DNA of 64,000 nt from Anderseniella sp. Alg231-50. GTDB lineage: Bacteria; Pseudomonadota; Alphaproteobacteria; Rhizobiales; Aestuariivirgaceae. Position 1 is the first letter of the stretch. Every line of letters starts with the position of its first letter. The position numbers and the translations under genes are program-made. Under the pieces are notes generated by a model that saw only the letters and a list, made by a program, of their open reading frames with translations, ran no database searches and was not told the DNA's origin. The stretch is from the NCBI RefSeq assembly GCF_900149695.1, contig NZ_LT703003.1:2046001-2110000 (forward strand), in the 5' to 3' direction. Positions 1 through 11,596 of this stretch are shown here, in pieces.

Positions 1-2
1 CC

Positions 3-1775
3 TTCACACCGGCAGGAACACCGACAATCAATGCAGACCTGGTGCAGCGCCTTGGCGGATTTACCACCTTGTGCGAGGGGCTTGATTACGCAGCCCAGGG
101 CCAGACGGGGATGAATTTTTACGGCCCCCGCGGCCAGCTTGAAGAGATCGTATCCTATCATCAGTTGAGAAAGCGGGCGATTGCCGCAGCGCATCAGCTT
201 GTCAACGCCGGCATCAAGCCGGGCGAGCGCGTTGGCGTGGTGGCCGAGACGGGTGCTGAATTCATGGTGGTGTTCTTCGGATGCCAGTATGCCGGCATGG
301 TGCCGTGCCCGTTGCCTTATTCCATGTATATCGGCGGACGCGAGAGTTATGTGACACGTATTGCCGGCATGCTCGAAAGTGCGCACGCAACCGCAGTGGT
401 TACAACAGCTGATCTTGATGAGCTGGTTCGCGATGCCGCAGGCCGTGCCGGTATCAGGCGCGTGTTGAGCCATGAGCAGCTGGCGAGCCTTTCTACCGAA
501 GGTCCTGCACTCCAGCCGTTCGGCCCGGAAGATATTTCCTACATTCAGTATTCATCCGGCTCCACATCCAACCCGAAGGGTGTGTTGATTTCCCAGAAAG
601 CCGCGTGTGCGAACACCATGGCCATTCTGCGTCACGGACTGAAGATTCGCCCGACCGACAGGGCCTTTTCCTGGCTGCCGCTGTATCATGACATGGGGCT
701 GGTCGGATTCTGCCTGTCGCCAATGATGGGGCAGGTGTCGGTTGACTATCTTGCCACCCCGGCGTTCGCGCGCCGTCCGGCGCTGTGGCTCAAGCTGATG
801 TCGCAAAACCAGTGCACGGTCGCTTATGGCCCGTCATTCGGTTATGACCTCGCGGCGCGCCGTGCAAACGGCAGTCTGCCCGATCTCAAGCTGGATCAAT
901 GGCGTGTAGCCGGTATCGGCGGCGACATGGTGCGTGCCGACGTGCTGAAACTGTTTTCGGAAACACTCGGTGTCACCGGCTTCAAATCAAAGGCGTTCCT
1001 GCCCAGCTACGGGATGGCCGAGTCCACGCTCGGCGTATGCTTTGTCGATGCGGATGAAGAGATCCGGGTTGACGTGATCGATCGCACGGCAATGAAAGAG
1101 TACGGTGTTGCCGAAGTCTCGACCGAAACCGATCCCGATCGGGTCCGCAGTTTCGTCGTGTGCGGACGTCCGCTTCCCGCTCACAAAATGAGGGTCGTGA
1201 ATGTCACCGGCAAGGAACTGGGTGACCGCGAGATCGGATGCATCGAGATTGCCGGCCCGAGCCTGATGAGCGGCTATTTCCGTAATGATGCCGCCACGTC
1301 GGCGATCATGCGCGACGATGGTTTTATGGACACTGGTGACATGGGGTACTGGCTGGGTGGCGAGATTGTCATTACGGGCCGGGCCAAGGACATGATCTTG
1401 CACAACGGACGCAATATCTGGCCGCAGGACATTGAATGGTCCGTCGAGAAACTGTCCGCAGTGCGTGACGGGGACGTGGCCGCGTTTGCTGTCGAAGGCT
1501 CGATGGGTGAAGATTGCGTGCGTGTTCTGGTGCAGTGCCGCGTGCGCAAGGATGATGAAATCGACGCACTTCGCAAAGCCGTTAAAGCCCAGATTTCCCG
1601 GACAATCGGTATCGAGGCACAAGTGGTTATGGTGCCGCCCAAATCACTGCCGTTCACGTCATCAGGCAAGTTGTCACGTTCCGGCGCGAAAACCATGTTC
1701 AGCAATGGTGACATCGTTGAAATCGTGACAGATCTGGACACCGTCGAAAACGCCATGTCTGTGGCTGCCGAATAG
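3..1775 (+). CDS. Fatty-acyl-AMP ligase / acyl-ACP synthetase of ceramide synthesis (5'-partial)
   Basis: ANL-superfamily adenylating enzyme that should activate a fatty acid as acyl-AMP for loading on the acyl carrier protein encoded two genes downstream. Visible motifs (numbered from a GTG at 42): P-loop YSSGSTSNPKG near residue 170, SYGMAES near 322, TGDMG near 431, GRAKD near 446, and a C-terminal SSGKLSR with the catalytic lysine near 543. The frame is open from base 3 with no upstream stop and reads sensible protein (FTPAGTPTINADL), so the true start probably lies before the window and the GTG at 42 is not trusted. It is first of four same-strand genes whose order (ligase, reductase, ACP, SPT) matches the known Caulobacter ceramide genes. 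Family assignment is firm; the ceramide role is inferred from context. Confidence 0.85.
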   Translation, partial: FTPAGTPTINADLVQRLGGFTTLCEGLDYAAQGQTGMNFYGPRGQLEEIVSYHQLRKRAIAAAHQLVNAGIKPGERVGVVAETGAEFMVVFFGCQYAGMVPCPLPYSMYIGGRESYVTRIAGMLESAHATAVVTTADLDELVRDAAGRAGIRRVLSHEQLASLSTEGPALQPFGPEDISYIQYSSGSTSNPKGVLISQKAACANTMAILRHGLKIRPTDRAFSWLPLYHDMGLVGFCLSPMMGQVSVDYLATPAFARRPALWLKLMSQNQCTVAYGPSFGYDLAARRANGSLPDLKLDQWRVAGIGGDMVRADVLKLFSETLGVTGFKSKAFLPSYGMAESTLGVCFVDADEEIRVDVIDRTAMKEYGVAEVSTETDPDRVRSFVVCGRPLPAHKMRVVNVTGKELGDREIGCIEIAGPSLMSGYFRNDAATSAIMRDDGFMDTGDMGYWLGGEIVITGRAKDMILHNGRNIWPQDIEWSVEKLSAVRDGDVAAFAVEGSMGEDCVRVLVQCRVRKDDEIDALRKAVKAQISRTIGIEAQVVMVPPKSLPFTSSGKLSRSGAKTMFSNGDIVEIVTDLDTVENAMSVAAE

Positions 1776-1839
1776 GTTCGCGCCCGTTCGCACCAGTCCG
1801 GCATTTCTGCTGAACAATCTGCTGTTAAGTGATTGAGCC

Positions 1840-2817
1840 ATGCCTTCACGACAAGCGCACCCTGCGCCGCTTCGGATTGCGATCACCGGAGTTACCGGAT
1901 TTGTGGGTTCACACCTGGTGCGCCAGCTGGCTGCACGCGGCCATGACATCACAGCGCTGGTTCGCGATCGATCGCGGTTGAGCAAGAAATTTCCGGCTTC
2001 CGCAGTTGTTGTTGAAGGGGCGCTGGACGACACGCAGGCCTTGGACGAGTTGGTTGGCAGGGCAGAGGTCGTTGTGCATGTGGCCGGTGCCATAAAGGCG
2101 ATCGACGCAGCCCGGTTCATGGCGGTCAATGCAGACGGCACCCGTGCGGTTGTTGAAGCTGCAGGCCGTGCCGACGTGACCAGGTTTGTGCACGTGTCGT
2201 CGCTGGCCGCCAGAGAGCCTGCGTTATCCGGCTATTGTGCGTCAAAGGCGGCGGCGGAATCGATTGTTGCAGGCGCGGCAGGCGACATGGAATGGATCTG
2301 CGTGCGCCCGCCGGCGGTTTACGGACCGGGGGATCGCGCAACGCTGCCTTTGGTGCAGCAGCTGTCCAGGCGGCATGCGATCCTGACCGGTACGCACGAT
2401 CAGCGGATTTCTCTGCTGCATGTCGAAGACCTGGCAAGTGGGCTGGTTGCGGCGGCGGAAGGACTTGTTGAAGGCGGTACGGTCTATGAGGCGGATGATG
2501 CAACTGTGAACGGATACAGCTGGCAGGATGTGGCCACCGCCGCCGGGCGCAGCCTGGGGTTCACGCCCCGGGTTCACCTGTTACCCCGCCCGATTGTGCA
2601 GATGGCCGGTACTGCCGGTGCGATGATGGCCGGGATAACCGGCAAGGCACAGATTTTGACGGCTGGAAAAGCCCGCGAACTTTATCATGCTGACTGGGTG
2701 ATAAAGGGGGTTCGCCTGGACGCGACGGGGCACTGGCAAGCCCGAAGGAAGTTTGACGAGGGGTTTGCTGACACCCTTCGCTGGTATCGGGCGCATGGAT
2801 GGTTGCCTGCGGGATAA
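1840..2817 (+). CDS. NAD-dependent epimerase/dehydratase, probable ceramide reductase (CerR-like)
   Basis: Extended short-chain dehydrogenase of 325 residues. It has an N-terminal Rossmann motif TGVTGFVG at about residues 16-23 and the catalytic pair YCASK at about 132-136. It lies between the acyl-AMP ligase and the ACP of the ceramide operon, the position held in Caulobacter by CerR, which is thought to reduce the 3-keto group of the newly acylated sphingoid base. The generic annotation 'NAD(P)-dependent epimerase' would miss this. Sixty-four bases separate it from the upstream gene and 44 from the ACP gene, so co-transcription is likely. The fold is certain; the substrate is inferred from gene order. 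Confidence 0.8.
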   Translation: MPSRQAHPAPLRIAITGVTGFVGSHLVRQLAARGHDITALVRDRSRLSKKFPASAVVVEGALDDTQALDELVGRAEVVVHVAGAIKAIDAARFMAVNADGTRAVVEAAGRADVTRFVHVSSLAAREPALSGYCASKAAAESIVAGAAGDMEWICVRPPAVYGPGDRATLPLVQQLSRRHAILTGTHDQRISLLHVEDLASGLVAAAEGLVEGGTVYEADDATVNGYSWQDVATAAGRSLGFTPRVHLLPRPIVQMAGTAGAMMAGITGKAQILTAGKARELYHADWVIKGVRLDATGHWQARRKFDEGFADTLRWYRAHGWLPAG

Positions 2818-2861
2818 GACGCGCCTACAAAGCGGCACATTGTTGATGGAGATAACAGAGT

Positions 2862-3110
2862 ATGACGGACGACGAGCAGGAAATTTTCGACAAGCTGAGC
2901 GAGCTTTTGCAACCGTTCAATGAAAAGCAGGTCGAACTGAAACCTCAGACTGAAATTGCTGTGGACTTGGCAATAGACTCTGTTTCGGTGATGGATTTCG
3001 TCATGGAAGTGGAGGATCATTTTGATATGGATATTCCGCTGAATGTGCTGTCGGAAACCCACACCATGAAAGACCTGATCTCGGTTGTTCAGGCACGAAA
3101 GAAAACATAA
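2862..3110 (+). CDS. Dedicated acyl carrier protein of the ceramide operon
   Basis: Small acidic protein of 82 residues with the typical four-helix ACP pattern. The 4'-phosphopantetheine site is Ser40 in the motif DSVSVMDF, where the usual DSLSxVE is altered. It is not the housekeeping AcpP, which is more strongly conserved and sits in the fab cluster. Placed between the CerR-like gene and serine palmitoyltransferase, it most likely carries the fatty acid activated by the upstream ligase, as AcpR does in Caulobacter ceramide synthesis. Sixteen bases separate its stop from the start of the next gene. Confidence 0.85.
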   Translation: MTDDEQEIFDKLSELLQPFNEKQVELKPQTEIAVDLAIDSVSVMDFVMEVEDHFDMDIPLNVLSETHTMKDLISVVQARKKT

Positions 3111-3126
3111 GACCAAAGGTACTGTA

Positions 3127-4332
3127 ATGGTTGATCTGCTCGACAAGAACAAAGGGCTCCTGGACCGGATGCAGAAGGTGGCGGAAGCTGGCTCGCGCGT
3201 AGGCCCGGTGAACGAGAAGCTGCTGTCACCGACCCGTGCGATGATTGACGGGCGTGACACTATTCTTGCCGGCACCAACAATTACATGGGCGTGACGTTC
3301 GAAGCTTCCTGCGTCGAGGCGGGCCAGCGTGCCCTGGCCGAACATGGAACAGGTACTACCGGTTCGCGGATCGCCAATGGCAGCTATGCCATTCATGAGG
3401 AACTGGAACAGGAACTGGCCGGTTTTCTGGGCATGAAGCACTGCATAGTGTTCTCTACCGGCTATCAGGCCAACCTGGGCATGATGGCGGGGCTTGCCGG
3501 ACCCAAGGACACGATCTTCCTGGATGCTGACAGTCATTCCTCGATCTATGACGGATGCACGCTTTCAGGTGCACAGCTTGTGCGGTTCCGGCACAACGAT
3601 GCTGCGGACCTCGACAAGCGCCTGACCCGCATGGGGGATACCGGCGGCGGGCACCTGGTGGTTCTGGAAGGGATCTATTCCATGTTGGGCGACCGCGCCC
3701 CGCTGGCTGAATTCGTCGAAGTCAAGAAGAAGCACGGCTTCCAGCTATTGGTCGATGAAGCCCATTCATTCGGCGTTCTCGGACCCAATGGCTGTGGCCT
3801 GGCGGATGAAGCCGGACTGATGCATGAGGCTGACTTTGTCGTCGGTACGTTTTCCAAATCGATTGGTGCAATTGGCGGGTTCGGCGCCTCGAACCATCCG
3901 ATGTTTGAAACTGTTCGCTATTCTTCCAAGCCGTACATGTTCACCGCTTCGCCGTCACCGGCATCGGTTGCCACTGCTACTGCGGCAGTTAGGGTTTTGG
4001 CGCGCGAGCCGGAAAGGCGCGACCGGTTGCAGTCGAACTCGGCGCGCTTGTTCCACGGATTGCGTGGACTGGGGCTTGAACTGGGCTGTGATGAAGTGAG
4101 CCCGGTTATAGCGGTCAAGTGTGCCGATGAACCGTCGACCCTGGTGATGTGGAACGAACTGCTGGCCGCCGGTGTTTACGTGAATATCGCGCTGCCACCC
4201 GGCACGCCCGGCAAGTTGTGCCTGTTGCGGTGTTCGGTTTCAGCCGCGCACACCGAGGCTGAAATTGACCGGATCATCGAACTGTTCGCTACGGTCGTGG
4301 CCGACAAGCAGCTTGCGAGCGCATCAGCCTAG
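3127..4332 (+). CDS. spt: Serine palmitoyltransferase (alpha-oxoamine synthase family)
   Basis: PLP-dependent enzyme of 401 residues that condenses serine with a long-chain acyl thioester to give 3-ketosphinganine, the first step of sphingolipid synthesis. Visible residues: DxxH pair D210 and H213 (VDEAHSFG), Schiff-base lysine K244 in TFSKSIG, and the substrate-binding GTTGSRIANG segment. I chose the ATG at 3127, preceded by AAAGGT about six bases upstream; an in-frame start at 3085 would overlap the ACP gene and lacks homology. The family also includes KBL and 8-amino-7-oxononanoate synthase, but the ACP/CerR/ligase neighbours favour SPT. It converges on lptG, with 45 bases between the two stops. 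Confidence 0.88.
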   Translation: MVDLLDKNKGLLDRMQKVAEAGSRVGPVNEKLLSPTRAMIDGRDTILAGTNNYMGVTFEASCVEAGQRALAEHGTGTTGSRIANGSYAIHEELEQELAGFLGMKHCIVFSTGYQANLGMMAGLAGPKDTIFLDADSHSSIYDGCTLSGAQLVRFRHNDAADLDKRLTRMGDTGGGHLVVLEGIYSMLGDRAPLAEFVEVKKKHGFQLLVDEAHSFGVLGPNGCGLADEAGLMHEADFVVGTFSKSIGAIGGFGASNHPMFETVRYSSKPYMFTASPSPASVATATAAVRVLAREPERRDRLQSNSARLFHGLRGLGLELGCDEVSPVIAVKCADEPSTLVMWNELLAAGVYVNIALPPGTPGKLCLLRCSVSAAHTEAEIDRIIELFATVVADKQLASASA

Positions 4333-4377
4333 AGAGTTTTTGGCCTGGCCCAATGCCGCGTGCCGCAAGCACGGGCG

Positions 4378-5454
4378 TCAGCTGACCGTTTCCGCCTTGA
4401 ATGTCATGGCGCCGGCAATGGCCGCATAAACGAGAAATGGTGCCCAGGCGCCAAACCAGGGCGGCACGAAACCCACTTCTCCCATGGTCAGTGCTATGCC
4501 TTCGAATATCGAGAAGGTGAAGCCCAGAGCCAGCCCGACCATGAACAGGCGACCAGCGGCACCGCCGCGCCTGAACTGAACCGCCAGCGGAATACACAGG
4601 GCAATCATCAGCCATGGCGTGAACAGCAACGACATGCGCCGATGCCACCAGGTTTCGAACACGTGCACAGGCTTGATGCCAAAACCGGCGTTGCGGATGA
4701 AATATCCCAGGTCAACTGTCGACATCTCCGCAGGTTCACCGGAGCGTTTGCCTTCGCGGGCGGGACGCATATTTCCCGAGTACACCAGCCGTTTGATGCG
4801 GTTGGGTTTTACGTTTTCTGCGTGGTAGATAATCACATCTTCCAGTTGCCAGCGCCGGTTCACCAAAGTGGCCTTGTGGGCATTGATCTGTTCCAGCAGT
4901 TTGCCGTCGGGGCCGCGGCGGAAAATGATGATGTCGGTCAACTCGGTTGCATCGCTGTTTGCGCCCGAGGCGCGCAAGATGTCATTGTCGGCGCGCATCC
5001 AGATTGCCTTGCCGCTGCCGGCACCGGCTTTCTTGCTGCCATATTCGCCGATGCCCCAATCTATCAGCTTGGGCGTGACCCTCGGTACGCCCTGATCGGC
5101 AATCAGGAATGTCATGCCGCCGATAATCACAGCGAGCGGAAACAGCATGAACACAATTTTCACCGGCGATAGGCCGGTTGCCCAGATGGCGGTAAGTTCA
5201 CTGCGATAGGACAGTTCGACAAGTGCCAGCAGAATGCCGAGCAATACGGCAATCGCCATGAAGGTCGAAGCTGTAACCGGTAACAGCAGCAAGGCGTACT
5301 CGGCTATGGCCGCCGCGCCGCCCGGGCCACGTTTCAGGATTTCTTCCGAATAGGTCACAAGCGTCAGTGAAACGACGAAGACCGAAATGCCGGTGAGGAT
5401 CATCACGAACCGCAGCAGGATCATTTTTGACAGCAGCCAGCCGATTGTCTTCAT
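4378..5454 (-). CDS. lptG: LptG-like permease (YjgP/YjgQ family)
   Basis: Integral membrane protein of 358 residues with one N-terminal transmembrane helix (about residues 13-33), further helices near 60-120, a periplasmic jellyroll-like middle part and C-terminal helices near 270-350. The family forms, with LptF and the LptB ATPase, the ABC transporter that extracts lipopolysaccharide from the inner membrane. Its start overlaps the lptF stop by four bases (ATG at 5454), so the two are translationally coupled. It lies tail-to-tail with the ceramide operon rather than beside lptD or pepA, raising the possibility that this pair serves sphingolipid export. Family call is firm; substrate unknown. 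Confidence 0.85.
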   Translation of the reverse strand: MKTIGWLLSKMILLRFVMILTGISVFVVSLTLVTYSEEILKRGPGGAAAIAEYALLLLPVTASTFMAIAVLLGILLALVELSYRSELTAIWATGLSPVKIVFMLFPLAVIIGGMTFLIADQGVPRVTPKLIDWGIGEYGSKKAGAGSGKAIWMRADNDILRASGANSDATELTDIIIFRRGPDGKLLEQINAHKATLVNRRWQLEDVIIYHAENVKPNRIKRLVYSGNMRPAREGKRSGEPAEMSTVDLGYFIRNAGFGIKPVHVFETWWHRRMSLLFTPWLMIALCIPLAVQFRRGGAAGRLFMVGLALGFTFSIFEGIALTMGEVGFVPPWFGAWAPFLVYAAIAGAMTFKAETVS

Positions 5455-6623
5455 GGTGAACCCGGGGCAGGCAACGGCCTGATCTTGCGCCAGACGGTCT
5501 TGATATGATCAGCTATGTCCTCCATCACCGGTTCCAGCCAGGGCCGGGGCAAGGTGTAACAAGTGACGTAGAACCGCCAGAATGCAAATCCGGCAAACAG
5601 CGAAAACGGTGTCCATATAGTCAACCAGACAGAAGTGCCGGACACCCGTGTTATCAGATGTCCCTGCTGCAGCACTTCATGAAATGCCACCAGCAGGATA
5701 AGTGCTATGGCGAACCTGTAGGCCCGGTTGCCGCGGCGCGAACCAATCGCGTAGGGCAGCGCCAAAAACGGCAGGATCAGTACCAGTGCCACCAGCGCCA
5801 GCCGGATATGGAATTGCGCCTCCATCTTTGTCTTTCGATTGTCACTCGGGTCTGCACTCTGCAATTGCATGTACAATTCCGTCAGTGTCAGTTCCCGTTC
5901 ATTACGCCCGCGCGGACGGAACACCTCTTTCGACAGTTCGCCCAGTGCCACATCAGCCGACTGGAAGTCACCGACCACCGGTGGCTCCAGTGTGGACGTC
6001 GAAGCCGTTGCGTTCTTCGACTTCATTTCCATGCGGTGACCGTCATCAAGCCGCAGGACAGGTCGGGAATTGGCCGGATCATCCACCAGCTTGCCGTTCA
6101 GGGCGGTAATGGTTTCGCTGCCCTTCCGGCCATTGTCGTCATACATGAAGATGCGCTGGAATGAATTGTCCCGGCGTTCCAGCTTGTCGAGAATGAAGGT
6201 GCGCTTGCCGGTTTGCATGAAGACGCCTTCTTCCGCGAGATAGAACACGTCGACATTGGCAAGGGTGTAGACAGTGGCCCGGTAGGCATACAGCGAATAG
6301 GGTTGTATCCAGCCAAACATCAAGGCGGCATTGACGGCGAGAACGACCGAAATCATGCAGACCGGACGGGTCAGTCTTCCAAGCCCGACACCGGCTGCCA
6401 GAAAGGCATCCAGTTCGGAATCCTTGGACATTTTGTTGAAGCCGAACAACAAGCCGAGATACAGGGCCACAGGTGCGGCAAGCCCGATATAGTGCGGCAT
6501 CCAGTACGCCAGCAGTTCGAGGACCACGCCAAACGAGTTGCGATTGCCAAGCGTGATATCCAGTACCTGCACGATGCGTTCAGCACACAGCACGGACAAT
6601 CCGGCTCCCAGTGCAGTCAGCAA
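5451..6623 (-). CDS. lptF: LptF-like permease (YjgP/YjgQ family), start uncertain
   Basis: Partner of LptG in a lipid-extracting ABC transporter. At least 390 residues, with N-terminal helices, a soluble periplasmic domain and three C-terminal helices. The first standard start codon in frame is TTG at 6623, but that would begin inside the first transmembrane helix. The frame continues upstream as FRIPIIERYVIRQVSIPL, which matches the usual LptF N-terminus (polar residues, an arginine-tyrosine pair, then the helix). The only plausible start there is ATT at 6675-6677, giving about 408 residues. Either a rare ATT start or a sequence error is implied. No separate LptB gene is nearby. Confidence 0.85.
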   Translation of the reverse strand: MLTALGAGLSVLCAERIVQVLDITLGNRNSFGVVLELLAYWMPHYIGLAAPVALYLGLLFGFNKMSKDSELDAFLAAGVGLGRLTRPVCMISVVLAVNAALMFGWIQPYSLYAYRATVYTLANVDVFYLAEEGVFMQTGKRTFILDKLERRDNSFQRIFMYDDNGRKGSETITALNGKLVDDPANSRPVLRLDDGHRMEMKSKNATASTSTLEPPVVGDFQSADVALGELSKEVFRPRGRNERELTLTELYMQLQSADPSDNRKTKMEAQFHIRLALVALVLILPFLALPYAIGSRRGNRAYRFAIALILLVAFHEVLQQGHLITRVSGTSVWLTIWTPFSLFAGFAFWRFYVTCYTLPRPWLEPVMEDIADHIKTVWRKIRPLPAPGSP

Positions 6624-6806
6624 CGGAATTGATACCTGGCGAATGACATATCGCTCGATAATCGGAATTCTGAAAATATTGCTTTCGGCCGCGCGCCGTC
6701 CTCTGTTGCTGCCGGAATGGCCAGATCAGGTTTATGGGGCCACTTGATCCCCTGGTGCTCTACAGCAAACCGCTCCGACTGTTCAAACAATGCATTACCT
6801 GAATTG

Positions 6807-7724
6807 TCAATCCAGACTATAACTTGTTTGCGGCACGAAGCTGCACTTTTCCGTGTCCCAGCATCTGGTGTTGACGGTGCACTGCCACCTGCCGGATGTG
6901 CGGCGGATATGGTATTCGTTCCAGGCGGCCGGTTCGGTACTGCGTGCGCCACTTGATGTGGCTGCAGGCATGCCGAGAATATGGACCGGCCCGTGCCGGG
7001 AGGCCAGCGTATTGCGCATTGTGATGTGATTGTGACCGTGCACAACCAAATCGCAGCCCTGGTCCTCCAGTACCTGTTTCAGGTTTTTGGCGTCGGTCAG
7101 GGCCTTGCGCCGTTTGGCCAGGCCGGGCAATGGCGGATGATGGATCATCAATATCCGGTAGAAGCCCTTCGAGCGCAGGTTCTGCAGGGTGTTTGCAAGC
7201 GCATCGAGCTGCGCGTCTCCCAGAATACCTGTGGCGCGGCCGGGCCTCGTCGGTACGGCCGTTGATACGCCGATAAGCGCGATATTGCGGCGCTGGCGCA
7301 CATACGGGAACGGCATGGCAATACCGGCTGTCGCGACAGCTCCCTGCACCATCAGGTCGCCGGTCATGTAGTCGCCCAGTCGGCCCATTCCCTTGTCCCA
7401 CTGCACCGGCACATAGGCATCATGATTGCCGGGCACAAACGAAATCCAGTCGGGCCTGCCGAGGTTCCGAAGCCAGCTCTCGCCATTGATGAATTCGCGG
7501 GGCAGGGCAATGTTCACCAGGTCCCCGGTCACCATTACATGGCCGGGCTGGGCGGCCTTGATGTCACGCACAATCTCGCTGGCAATAGAGGGGTCATGGA
7601 TGGCCTTGCGCCGGAACATCCAGGAATTATAGCCCACGATGCGTTTTGAGGTCATCTCTGACGCCTTGACCGGTGGCAAGGGCGCCAGGTGAACATCCGA
7701 TATGTGCGCAATGCGAAAAGTCAC
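6807..7724 (-). CDS. Metallophosphoesterase (calcineurin-like)
   Basis: Dinuclear-metal phosphoesterase of 305 residues with the full motif set in order: DVH in ISDVHLAP near the N-terminus, GDLVN, GNHDAY, HHPP and GHNH. This resembles the cyclic-nucleotide phosphodiesterase-type bacterial branch. No signal peptide is visible, so it is probably cytoplasmic. It begins with GTG at 7724, 11 bases after the stop of the GNAT-like acyltransferase, and so probably sits in the same transcript as that gene and the ABC exporter. A role in removing a phosphate from a lipid intermediate is possible from context only; the substrate cannot be told from sequence. Confidence 0.8.
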   Translation of the reverse strand: MTFRIAHISDVHLAPLPPVKASEMTSKRIVGYNSWMFRRKAIHDPSIASEIVRDIKAAQPGHVMVTGDLVNIALPREFINGESWLRNLGRPDWISFVPGNHDAYVPVQWDKGMGRLGDYMTGDLMVQGAVATAGIAMPFPYVRQRRNIALIGVSTAVPTRPGRATGILGDAQLDALANTLQNLRSKGFYRILMIHHPPLPGLAKRRKALTDAKNLKQVLEDQGCDLVVHGHNHITMRNTLASRHGPVHILGMPAATSSGARSTEPAAWNEYHIRRTSGRWQCTVNTRCWDTEKCSFVPQTSYSLD

Positions 7725-7735
7725 AGAAATGTCCG

Positions 7736-8875
7736 TCAGGCAATGTTGCGTTCAAAAATCCGATAGGTCTTGTAGGCTGTTCCGCCAACGGCTTCTATCA
7801 TGCGGCGCATTGGCAGATTGTCTTCCAGTATCCAGGACAATTCCGCACGCTGCGTGCCCCTGCCGACATGGTAGGTGCGGATAGCATCAATAACCGACAT
7901 CGCAAGGGCCGATCCGACCGGTGTGCCATGAAACTTCTTGCGTACGCCCATCAGCGGCAAACGAACCGCCTCCGGCGTGGAAAACTTCAGGCGCGACAAC
8001 AGTTTCAGCCAGCCAAACGGCAGCAGTTTTCCGTTCAGGTCGCGGGCCGCGCGATTGATGTCGGGGAGTGTCACGGCCATGGCGCTGGGTTCGCCCTGAT
8101 AGATTGCAAACGCGATGAACTGCTCTTCGACCAGCATTTTCAGATCCTGGCCAAGCTTTCGGATTTCCGCATCACTGAACGGTGTAAATCCCCAGTTGTC
8201 AGACCAGGCATCATTGAAAATATCAATCAGAATGGCGAGGTCCCGGTCCAGGTTCTTCTTGCTCAGCGGCCGGACTTCAAGATCGCCGGTGGCCTTTACC
8301 TTGGCCAGCATTCCCGCCAGTCCGCGGGGCAATGCTTTCGAGTTGTCGAAATCATAGGCCAGCACATCCTTCACCGGCGTGTACCCGGCGGCTGTAACAT
8401 GACCCTCATAGTAAGGCGCCGCATGGCCCATCATAACCGCCGGCGGATGTTCAAAGCCGTCCACCAGCAAACCAGTTTCTTCATTGATGGAAAAGCCGAA
8501 CGGACCAACGGCGCGGGTCATTCCTTCTGTCTTGAGCCAGTCTTCCGCGGCATTGAGCAAAGCTGCAAAGACAGCGCGGTCATCGATGGCATCGAGGAAA
8601 CCGAACATGCCGGTTGCGTCGCGGTAGCGGGCGAGCCTGAGTTCATCAACCTGTGCCGAAATCCGGCCAACGGGCCGACCATCGCGGATGGCCAGAAACA
8701 ATTGCGCCCGGCCATGTTCGAAAAACGGATTGTGCCTGGGAGAAAGGTGCTGTGAGCGTTCGAAATTCAGAGGCGCGATCCAGGCCGGGTCGTCAGCGAA
8801 AACGGCATGAGGTACCTGGACAAAAGCCCTGTAGTCACGCGGGTCATCGACCAATCGGATTTCAACGTCACTCAT
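7736..8875 (-). CDS. GNAT-fold acyltransferase, candidate bacterial ceramide synthase
   Basis: A 379-residue protein of the large GNAT-like family (YghO-like, often labelled dATP pyrophosphohydrolase or hypothetical). It starts MSDVEIRLVDD; I chose the ATG at 8875, whose codon overlaps the ABC exporter stop by eight bases, rather than an upstream start that only reads into that gene. The region RAQLFLAIRDGRPVGRISA is a GNAT-like core strand and the C-terminal RAELSWILEDN..RRMIEAVG resembles the end of acyl-CoA N-acyltransferases. Bacterial ceramide synthase of Caulobacter is a GNAT-like protein encoded a few genes from SPT, and this gene sits 3.4 kb from SPT. Family confident, function inferred. 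Confidence 0.65.
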   Translation of the reverse strand: MSDVEIRLVDDPRDYRAFVQVPHAVFADDPAWIAPLNFERSQHLSPRHNPFFEHGRAQLFLAIRDGRPVGRISAQVDELRLARYRDATGMFGFLDAIDDRAVFAALLNAAEDWLKTEGMTRAVGPFGFSINEETGLLVDGFEHPPAVMMGHAAPYYEGHVTAAGYTPVKDVLAYDFDNSKALPRGLAGMLAKVKATGDLEVRPLSKKNLDRDLAILIDIFNDAWSDNWGFTPFSDAEIRKLGQDLKMLVEEQFIAFAIYQGEPSAMAVTLPDINRAARDLNGKLLPFGWLKLLSRLKFSTPEAVRLPLMGVRKKFHGTPVGSALAMSVIDAIRTYHVGRGTQRAELSWILEDNLPMRRMIEAVGGTAYKTYRIFERNIA

Positions 8876-10607
8876 GCGCGGGCGTTTCTGCCGTTTTCCG
8901 GTTACGCCTGGCCGGAGTCTTGATTTCCACAGCGGCGCCGTTTTCCACCTTGTACAGGCGATCTGCGATTCTGGACCAGGCCGGCCGATGGGTAATAGCA
9001 ATGATCGTGAACTCGCCGGCAAGCTCGAGGGCATTGCGGCAAATGCTGGCTTCGGTTTCAGGATCGAGCGCGCTGGTAACCTCGTCAAGTATCAGCAGTT
9101 TGGGCCGGCTCACCAGAGCCCGGGCCAGCGCAATACGCTGTCGTTGCCCACCTGACAGGCGGCCACCCATTTCGCCGGCATTCGAGTCCAGCCGATCAGG
9201 CAGGGAGTTGATGAAGTCTTCAGCATCTGCAAGCCGCAGCGCATCGGCTATGTCGTCATCAGAGAGCGCAGTGTTGCCAAGCGCAATGTTGTCGCGCAGG
9301 CTGGAGTGCAGCAGTGACAGTTCCTGCGGTACATAGCCGATGTTTGAACGCCATGCTTTCAGCGATAACTCGGTCAGCGGACGGCCGTCGACCTTGATGC
9401 TTCCGGAGGCAGGTTCATGCAGACCAAGCAGCAGATCGACAATTGTCGTCTTGCCGGCGCCGGACGGTCCCTGCAGCACGGTAATCTTGCCGGAAGGAAT
9501 GAACAGCGAGACGTTCTCGACGGTTGGCCGGTCCTCGTGTGCAAACGTCACATGGTCGAAGGTGCATCCTTCATCCAGGGTTATGTCCTGCGCACCGCCG
9601 GTACGTTCAGCTTCGCTGGTCAGTCTTTCCGACATCTGGTGAACGGCGTAGTAGGAAGCCTCCAGTTCGGCACCGCGCTGCAGGAACCGTTGAAGGCGCC
9701 GCACAATGGAAAAGGATTGATAACCGATGATGCCGAGCACCGTGACGCTGGCAAGTGTTATTCCCCAAACGCCAACGGCCAGAAAGAAACTGACCCCGAT
9801 CATTATTGCAATCAGAATGTCGCTGCCGCGTTCCAGTCCCTGGGAAGACAAGACCTGGACCTTCATCGATTTGTTGAGGGTCTGCAGGTTTGAACCGAAC
9901 ATGGCAATGAACGGCACCGTTCGAGCCATTGACTTGATTGGCTTGATGTTGTTCAGGGCGTCAGCGACAATGGTGACAAGCTGGCTGGTCGAAGCCGTCT
10001 GGCGCTTGCCGGCACGACGGCTGATCGCAATCAGCTTACCCAGCCCCAGCACAATGATTGCGCCGGCAATGACACCGGCAATTGCAAACTTGACCGACGC
10101 CATCATTGCAAAGATGAGGTAGCCAGTGCCCTGGACAATTGCAGCGACAAACTTTGCGGATTCCATATAGGCCTGGCCAGCACGCGTGGCATCAACCGAA
10201 ATGGTATTGGCAATCCGCCCGGCGCGATGATCGACAAAGTAGCGCCATTTCGTGTCGAACATGGCGTTCAGCAGGTCTTCGCGCAATTTGGTCGAGACGT
10301 TTGCGATCGAAAAACCGGCATATGTAAGTGCGGCACCCAGCAAGATGGTGCGCAGGACCAGCATCGCTACTACGGCAATTGTATACCCGAGAACGGTGTT
10401 AGGCAGCCCGGTTACCGCCAGCGTTGCATCAATAACCGTCTGGAACGCCGGTGGCAGATCGCCTTGTTCGCCCGACACGGTCAGAAGTGCGGGCAACAAT
10501 GCGCTCATTGATGCTATTTCAGCTACCGATGACAGAATCAGGCAGGTCAGGACCAGCCATGGATTGGTGCCTTTTGCAGATGCAAAAATCCGGAAAAGTC
10601 TCAGCAT
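8868..10607 (-). CDS. ABC exporter, fused permease and ATPase (MsbA/lipid-exporter type)
   Basis: Half-transporter of 579 residues: six predicted transmembrane helices in the first 330 residues, then an ATPase domain with Walker A GPSGAGKTT near 380, signature LSGGQRQR near 484, Walker B LLILDE near 502 and switch histidine in ITHRP near 536. It should act as a homodimer moving a lipid or other substrate across the inner membrane. Its stop overlaps the start of the candidate ceramide synthase gene, indicating coupled expression, which makes a ceramide or sphingolipid flippase the best guess. A peptide or drug exporter cannot be excluded. Confidence 0.82.
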   Translation of the reverse strand: MLRLFRIFASAKGTNPWLVLTCLILSSVAEIASMSALLPALLTVSGEQGDLPPAFQTVIDATLAVTGLPNTVLGYTIAVVAMLVLRTILLGAALTYAGFSIANVSTKLREDLLNAMFDTKWRYFVDHRAGRIANTISVDATRAGQAYMESAKFVAAIVQGTGYLIFAMMASVKFAIAGVIAGAIIVLGLGKLIAISRRAGKRQTASTSQLVTIVADALNNIKPIKSMARTVPFIAMFGSNLQTLNKSMKVQVLSSQGLERGSDILIAIMIGVSFFLAVGVWGITLASVTVLGIIGYQSFSIVRRLQRFLQRGAELEASYYAVHQMSERLTSEAERTGGAQDITLDEGCTFDHVTFAHEDRPTVENVSLFIPSGKITVLQGPSGAGKTTIVDLLLGLHEPASGSIKVDGRPLTELSLKAWRSNIGYVPQELSLLHSSLRDNIALGNTALSDDDIADALRLADAEDFINSLPDRLDSNAGEMGGRLSGGQRQRIALARALVSRPKLLILDEVTSALDPETEASICRNALELAGEFTIIAITHRPAWSRIADRLYKVENGAAVEIKTPARRNRKTAETPAHE

Positions 10608-10798
10608 CAGGCAACCGTCATCATAGTGTTGATATTTGTTACAGGATCACGCATTCCACAACGATTAGAGGCGTCTCGTCGCTTGGGCAAGGGCGGAGTT
10701 GAATGAAGCCAACAGTTCGCGATGATTTTCAGCCATGAAGACCGAACAGCAAGCCCGGACATCATACAAGCAGCCATGCGCGGGCTGCGAGCAGCGTC

Positions 10799-11596
10799 TC
10801 AGTCGCGCGTACTCATTTTTTCCAGGGTCTCCGCAGCATCCCTGGTGGCCTGTTCGAACCTGTCTTCAAAGGTTTCCATGTTTTTCTGCGGGTTTTTGAA
10901 GAACGAACTCTTTTTCAGACCGGCAATGAAGAATTTGTGCAGCAAGCGGGCCGGTGTCTTCATTGGCCTGTCCACGTGCCACAACAACACAACCCGTTCT
11001 TCATCGGTGTTGTTGCTGACTTCATGCTTGTAGGTATCGTCAAAAACGAAAATCTTGCCTTCCTGCCAGGTGCAGTATTCGTCTGCCACACGTAACCGGC
11101 AGTTCTGCTGGTCCTGCGGCACAATCAATCCCAGGTGACAGGTAACGATACCCTTGGTTACTCCCTTGTGGGGCGGAATATGGGCTCCAGGTGCCAGGAT
11201 CGAAAACCACGCGGTCTGCAGGTTTGGAATGGTTTCCAGCATGGCTGCGGTTTTGGGCGCCTTGGCACAGTTGCGCTCCAGCTTTGTTCCAAACCCGAAC
11301 AGGAAGAACGTGCGCCACTGGTCTCCCTTGGAAATCTTCTTCTGATCGGTGGAGACTTCGTGGAATTTCGGTACCTGTTCGCGAAACTTCAGGATTTCCC
11401 TGATTTCGACGAGCACGTCCTGCCAGTTGTCCTCCAGCACCTTGAACTCGGGAAAATGCGCCGTGTCCAGAACGGGTGTATCGCCGATGAGAGACTGTCT
11501 TGATTGGAAACTCGCGATCAGGTTTCTGAACCGGCGACCATAGGTCACAAAAGCCTGATTCAAGGCTGATCTCTCTGGCTTAGCTGTTGTGGCCAT
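10799..11596 (-). CDS. Aspartyl/asparaginyl beta-hydroxylase family dioxygenase (LpxO-like)
   Basis: Fe(II)/2-oxoglutarate oxygenase of 265 residues. The core has PPHKG (first iron-binding histidine region), TCHLGL, and the late FDDTYKHEVSN (second histidine) followed by RVVLLWHVDRP, the usual 2-oxoglutarate-binding end of this jellyroll family. Bacterial members include LpxO, which 2-hydroxylates lipid A acyl chains. It is on the same strand as, and 191 bases upstream of, the ABC exporter. It may therefore hydroxylate the acyl or sphingoid chain of the lipid made by this locus; that substrate is inference. A basic C-terminal tail (LHKFFIAGLKKSSFFKNPQKN) could aid membrane association. Confidence 0.8.
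   Translation of the reverse strand: MATTAKPERSALNQAFVTYGRRFRNLIASFQSRQSLIGDTPVLDTAHFPEFKVLEDNWQDVLVEIREILKFREQVPKFHEVSTDQKKISKGDQWRTFFLFGFGTKLERNCAKAPKTAAMLETIPNLQTAWFSILAPGAHIPPHKGVTKGIVTCHLGLIVPQDQQNCRLRVADEYCTWQEGKIFVFDDTYKHEVSNNTDEERVVLLWHVDRPMKTPARLLHKFFIAGLKKSSFFKNPQKNMETFEDRFEQATRDAAETLEKMSTRD

Follow-up and report, generated by a model that had tools for sequence, protein, structure and literature searches.

A ceramide gene cluster with the sole LptF/LptG pair of an Anderseniella genome without LpxC and LpxB

Does a gene cluster for ceramide synthesis that also carries an LptF/LptG permease pair merely make a sphingolipid, or does it send that lipid to the outer membrane as well? The route of sphingolipids to the bacterial outer membrane was stated to be unknown in 2024 (PMC11087976, PMC11324152). 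The window analyzed here is a stretch of 64,000 nucleotides (contig 1, positions 2046001-2110000) from a 4.6 Mb, 99.4% complete genome of Anderseniella (Hyphomicrobiales). Its nearest named relatives are Anderseniella MAGs, with 80-99% identity across the proteins of the locus; the wider GTDB family takes in Aestuariivirga, Taklimakanibacter and Thermopetrobacter. The initial annotation had grouped ten genes at the start of this window into a single locus that would synthesize, hydroxylate, flip and export a sphingolipid. All ten are confirmed in place with significant profile matches.

Gene content and synteny of the ceramide locus

The plus strand carries a ligase, CerR, ACP and SPT, and their reading as the Caulobacter ceramide genes is confirmed by profile matches and synteny. 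The fatty acyl-AMP/ACP ligase of the AasR type (1..1775; PF00501, 197.8 bits; NF006624, 733 bits, above the cut-off) is cut by the window edge, the full open reading frame starting 93-94 bases ahead of base 1, and is 44-46% identical to its counterpart in syntenic Caulobacter loci. It is followed by a CerR-type SDR reductase/epimerase (ketoceramide reductase; 1840..2817; PF01370), which shares 39-41% identity with its counterpart in the CerR position of the Caulobacter loci, by a dedicated acyl carrier protein (AcpR; 2862..3110; PF00550), which relatives keep between CerR and SPT, and by serine palmitoyltransferase (Spt; 3085..4332; NF047599, 569 bits at a cut-off of 500), whose start is probably the GTG at 3130.

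The facing minus-strand genes begin with the permease subunits LptG2 (4378..5454; PF03739, 198.7 bits), which groups with LptG of other spt-linked loci, and LptF2 (5451..6677; PF03739, 201 bits). A calcineurin-like metallophosphoesterase (6807..7724; PF00149) occupies the position of CC_1157 in Caulobacter, and beyond it lies a GNAT-fold bacterial ceramide synthase of the bCerS/CC_1154 type (7736..8875; PF00583, weak), with 45-46% identity to its counterpart in the CC_1154 position of Caulobacter loci. The listed open reading frame of the latter, extending up to 9088, is too long; the start is the ATG at 8875. The series ends with an ABC exporter of the MsbA/ABCB type (8868..10607; PF00664 and PF00005) and an OlsC/LpxO-type 2-oxoglutarate dioxygenase of the Asp/Arg-hydroxylase family (10799..11596; PF05118). 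LptG and LptF overlap by a few bases, as do the GNAT and ABC genes, in an operon-like manner. With orthologs of ligase, CerR, ACP, Spt and bCerS all together, this is a ceramide cluster of the Caulobacter type.

The start of LptF is unusual. In all five Anderseniella-type genomes, no ATG, GTG or TTG lies shortly upstream of the conserved N-terminal helix (6617-6690, minus strand). The homology extends as far as position 6677, where an invariant ATT may serve as a rare start codon; the first usual one, a TTG at 6623, would truncate the protein.

The order ligase-CerR-ACP-SPT, facing LptG-LptF-phosphoesterase with the GNAT gene beyond, is found in seven families of the order (f1, f5, f7, f36, f37, f38 and f47). 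That several families share this order and the facing arrangement shows that the grouping is not due to chance. Caulobacter loci hold the same gene set in a different arrangement, the phosphoesterase being at the CC_1157 position. A scan of named genomes seeded with LptF2 yielded 80 loci, 47 of them at least 19 kb long. The phosphoesterase is present in 79 of the 80; among the long loci, 43 contain the GNAT gene and 39 have SPT within 10 kb, so that the situation which the initial annotation had named as evidence against itself, minus-strand genes in place in relatives without spt, was not encountered. One of the eight long loci without a nearby SPT, that of Thermopetrobacter (G022), has SPT elsewhere in the genome. 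Conserved synteny with spt, seen in Caulobacter as well as in at least seven families within the order, thus supports the one-locus view as far as synthesis, flipping and outward transport are concerned; hydroxylation is a plausible yet weaker part of it, because the hydroxylase occurs in only 14 of the 80 loci, many of which end with GNAT-ABC, and its locus copies do not form one clade. The initial annotation granted strong precedent to the four-gene core only, which is too narrow: bCerS, LptF2/LptG2, LptC2 and a candidate flippase are part of the Caulobacter cluster as well (PMC11324152).

Two minus-strand members deserve separate comment. The AlphaFold model of the phosphoesterase (pLDDT 95) resembles GpdQ, Lmo2642 and SMPDL3. 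In Caulobacter, CC_1157 was called probably unrelated (PMC11324152); the comparison of loci provides evidence that the metallophosphoesterase belongs with the sphingolipid system, and the gene persists in the Anderseniella locus despite the absence of the head-group genes described below. The ABC exporter adjoins the GNAT gene in many loci and scores 221.6 bits with the MsbA model of NCBIfam, whose cut-off is 602; by its position, it is a candidate inner-membrane ceramide flippase.

A single LptF/LptG pair without lipopolysaccharide genes

A genome-wide search for LptF/LptG returned exactly two genes, both inside the ceramide locus. In the phylogenetic tree, canonical LptF and spt-linked LptF form separate clades with high support, and LptF2 of the locus falls into one clade with the Caulobacter copies (SH-aLRT 98). 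The LptG groups are separate as well, the spt-linked one having low support. LptF2G2 is therefore distinct from the LPS pair, with LptF1 and LptF2 in separate clades, and is here the sole pair; identity between canonical LptFG and LptF2G2 is 22-27%. Residue K34 of LptG, which we take to be a lipid A-binding residue, was rejected as a marker: it seems unconserved even in a canonical LptG of Hyphomicrobiales and does not discriminate.

Profile searches of the 99.4% complete genome detected neither LpxC nor LpxB, the two genes by which the absence of lipid A genes was judged. Therefore, lipid A should not be makeable by the known route. The rest of the LPS-type Lpt machine is retained without genes for its lipid A substrate: LptB is a single-copy gene, LptC and LptA adjoin it ahead of rpoN, and LptD is located on another contig. 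What is decisive is this context, i.e. that the locus pair is the only LptFG of a genome without LPS genes.

The position of the loss can be traced. In LPS-positive relatives, lptF-lptG sits between pepA and lptD; in the genome studied here, pepA is directly followed by lptD-surA-pdxA-ksgA. The slot holds lptFG in all five LPS-positive controls and lacks it in all 15 LPS-less genomes examined, with pepA and lptD as direct neighbors in 12 of these. The contrast exists even within a genus: genome G111 lacks LpxC, LpxB and the lptFG of the slot, G034 and G076 retain all of them, and all three retain the spt-linked pair. In G111 (L087, L249), LPS was thus lost within a genus whose other members retain LPS and four LptF/G genes.

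Across the order, LpxC is missing in 27 out of 150 genomes, of which 20 are at least 90% complete. Among these 20, LptFG, SPT and LptD are all present in 16 and all absent in four, namely G051, G088 and G122 (family f51) and G066. This co-retention gives a p value of 2e-4 in Fisher's exact test, which overstates the case since the genomes are related. On the tree, no more than three changes of the LPS state are required; the independent evidence hence amounts to few events, not twenty.

Our reading is that the locus combines ceramide synthesis with a dedicated Lpt permease which passes sphingolipid on to the shared Lpt bridge, LPS being dispensed with; we regard this as likely. Two other explanations compete with it. 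LptF2G2 might carry another outer-membrane lipid, such as a hopanoid, glycolipid or ornithine lipid, the link to ceramide being co-regulation only. Sequence does not fix the substrate, the two permease pairs are as divergent as stated above, and both hydroxylases of the region resemble ornithine-lipid hydroxylases; nevertheless, in many families LptF2G2 goes together with SPT, and the four LPS-less genomes that lack SPT lack LptFG and LptD too, which makes another substrate improbable. Alternatively, the Lpt genes could be relics of LPS loss, with the sphingolipid arriving via MCE, AsmA-like proteins or bulk lipid flow. Phospholipids, and possibly sphingolipids, can indeed cross by other routes such as AsmA-like proteins. 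Yet decay would hardly remove LptF1G1 selectively while LptF2G2, LptB, LptC, LptA and LptD are kept, and the retention of LptF2G2 with LptD recurs in many lineages, complete loss being seen in genomes from which SPT is absent as well; we consider the relic explanation very improbable.

Head-group genes and hydroxylases

The fullest version of the locus, in genomes G126 and G038, has the plus series U184-ligase-CerR-ACP-SPT and, facing it, CpgC-like, ceramide kinase, CpgA-like, LptG, LptF, phosphoesterase, U269, CpgD-like, GNAT, ABC and hydroxylase genes, where the names CpgA, CpgC and CpgD were assigned by position relative to Caulobacter. CpgD is a phosphoglycerate cytidylyltransferase (PMC12275187). 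The Anderseniella locus is a pared-down form that lacks the five head-group genes: none of the CPG/CPG2 genes (ceramide kinase, CpgA, CpgC, CpgD) is found at the locus, and none of the six genomes of the genus encodes a CpgA-like CDP-alcohol transferase anywhere. The missing head-group route is the phosphoglycerate route only.

The hydroxylase at 10799-11596 exceeds the PF05118 gathering score (170.4 bits versus 22.6) and has the conserved metal-binding histidines; its invariant residues are H139, H143, H154, D186, D187, H191 and R201. Its initial label "LpxO-like" needs correction, as OlsC (NF052565) scores higher than the LpxO model of NCBIfam (210.8 versus 110.1 bits), both being below their cut-offs of 450 and 500, respectively. 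Action on lipid A, i.e. a function as LpxO, is ruled out by the absence of LpxC and LpxB from the genome. A second paralog, C5 (L151:9300-10124), is 53% identical and has genes for RND efflux and sulfite/PAPS reductase as its neighbors. In a divergent SPT locus (L091) of the LPS-positive genome G148, an OlsC-like hydroxylase is flanked by the CpgC-like gene on one side and the ceramide kinase gene on the other.

Is the enzyme, then, an OlsC-type acyl hydroxylase of ornithine lipids which is a mere neighbor of the ceramide operon? OlsC is the best NCBIfam model, a second copy exists outside the locus, and the locus copies are not one clade. On the other hand, the score is below half of the curated cut-off, orthologs are in place at the locus in relatives of the genus, further copies occur there in families f5, f7, f38 and f47, and the G148 copy is beside the ceramide kinase gene. 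Taken together, we hold the mere-neighbor explanation to be rather unlikely and slightly favor, from these comparisons, a hydroxylase that would act on ceramide.

Upstream of the window, the plus strand carries two further genes; minus-strand open reading frames ahead of the ligase have no family match and were rejected in favor of these. One is an OlsE-like gene of the PF04116 fatty-acid-hydroxylase family (L002:14032-14856), about 2.0 to 1.1 kb ahead of window base 1, which is found upstream of the ligase in the genus Anderseniella and in Aestuariivirga and whose likeness to OlsE is distant. In 69 genomes of the family, 25 have only the OlsE-like gene, 28 only the CpgA-like gene, nine both and seven neither; this anti-correlation (p 1e-5) tracks phylogeny and is only a hint. 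The other, U184 (L002:15078-15629), is a conserved orphan of 184 aa whose membrane helix lies at the C terminus. It immediately precedes the ligase and is present in 27 of the 80 LptF2 loci. Neither Pfam nor, for its moderate-confidence structure model, the PDB gave a match. An identity as LptC2 is unsupported, because these matches are missing and LptC adjoins LptB elsewhere.

Proposed export route and comparison with known systems

From the observed gene content and synteny, the missing LpxC and LpxB, the sole LptFG, the canonical slot emptied of lptFG and the retention of LptB/C/A/D, we infer which lipid is involved, what the ABC exporter, LptF2G2, the phosphoesterase and the hydroxylases act on, and in which direction transport runs. 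By homology with Caulobacter, ligase and ACP would charge an acyl chain, SPT would condense it with serine, and acylation by the GNAT ceramide synthase and reduction by CerR would lead to (dihydro)ceramide. Position and gene loss suggest that the ABC exporter would flip the ceramide over the inner membrane and that LptF2-LptG2, powered by the single LptB, would extract it and load it onto the LptC-LptA-LptD bridge, which would deliver it to the surface of the outer membrane in replacement of LPS. The OlsC-like operon enzyme would probably hydroxylate the ceramide, and the upstream OlsE-like enzyme may do so too. With the sole surviving LptFG inside the ceramide cluster, the outer membrane of Anderseniella is therefore probably covered with sphingolipid exported by a re-purposed LPS conveyor. 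More tentatively, and with rather less than even confidence, we propose that the LPS-free outer leaflet of Anderseniella and some relatives consists of hydroxylated ceramide without the anionic phosphoglycerate head group, delivered via a complete Lpt bridge with a permease switched from LPS to sphingolipid, extra hydroxyls from the OlsC-like and the OlsE-like enzyme replacing the lost head group. Our search found no literature on the lipids of the Anderseniella strain.

The gene set as such has largely been described in Caulobacter already. What is new is the evidence from gene loss, the evidence for membership of the phosphoesterase, the OlsC-like hydroxylase within the operon, and the finding that Anderseniella has lost the genes for the phosphoglycerate head group and carries an OlsE-like hydroxylase a short way upstream. 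Lineages that lost LPS and its LptFG, and kept the sphingolipid-linked LptFG and the bridge, represent a natural gene-loss experiment; they allow the question of sphingolipid transport to be tested in cells free of LPS, and they link the metallophosphoesterase, regarded as unrelated in Caulobacter, to the sphingolipid system. A search of the open-access literature turned up no paper in which LPS-less lineages serve as an argument that LptF2G2 transports sphingolipid.

The closest known system is the cluster CC_1168-CC_1152 of Caulobacter crescentus (PMC11324152), which shares the ligase-CerR-ACP-Spt core, bCerS, LptF2/LptG2 of the same LptF2 clade, the phosphoesterase at the CC_1157 position and an ABC flippase candidate (there CC_1166). 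That cluster comprises 17 genes, a potential flippase and additional versions of LptC, LptF and LptG among them; the LptC2 gene is co-fit with spt, and the LptC2 and LptF2 genes are co-fit with CC_1159, transport being proposed and untested (PMC11324152). SPT and bCerS of Caulobacter are cytoplasmic, and CerR is periplasmic (PMC11087976). Unlike Anderseniella, Caulobacter retains LPS and the canonical LptFG, and it possesses CPG/CPG2 head-group genes (ceramide kinase, CpgA, CpgC, CpgD). Its reported ceramide hydroxylase is of the DesA type and encoded elsewhere (CC_0202) (PMC11324152), whereas the candidate of Anderseniella is OlsC-like and within the operon.

To our knowledge, the Lpt-like system of Borrelia burgdorferi has no duplicated permease tied to a biosynthesis operon. 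Borrelia resembles Anderseniella in having an Lpt-type bridge in a diderm without LPS (PMC10353723), but its lineage and lipids are unrelated. The locus hydroxylase shares with the lipid 2-hydroxylases OlsC and LpxO the PF05118 fold and conserved histidines; it differs from them by scores under both NCBIfam cut-offs, by its place in a ceramide operon and by a genome without lipid A. As in the Sphingomonas koreensis type, LPS is absent and a sphingolipid substitute is predicted or known; S. koreensis is cited as requiring sphingolipid synthesis in PMC11324152. Sphingomonadales have their ceramide and transport genes dispersed around the genome (PMC11324152), whereas Anderseniella holds them in one locus.
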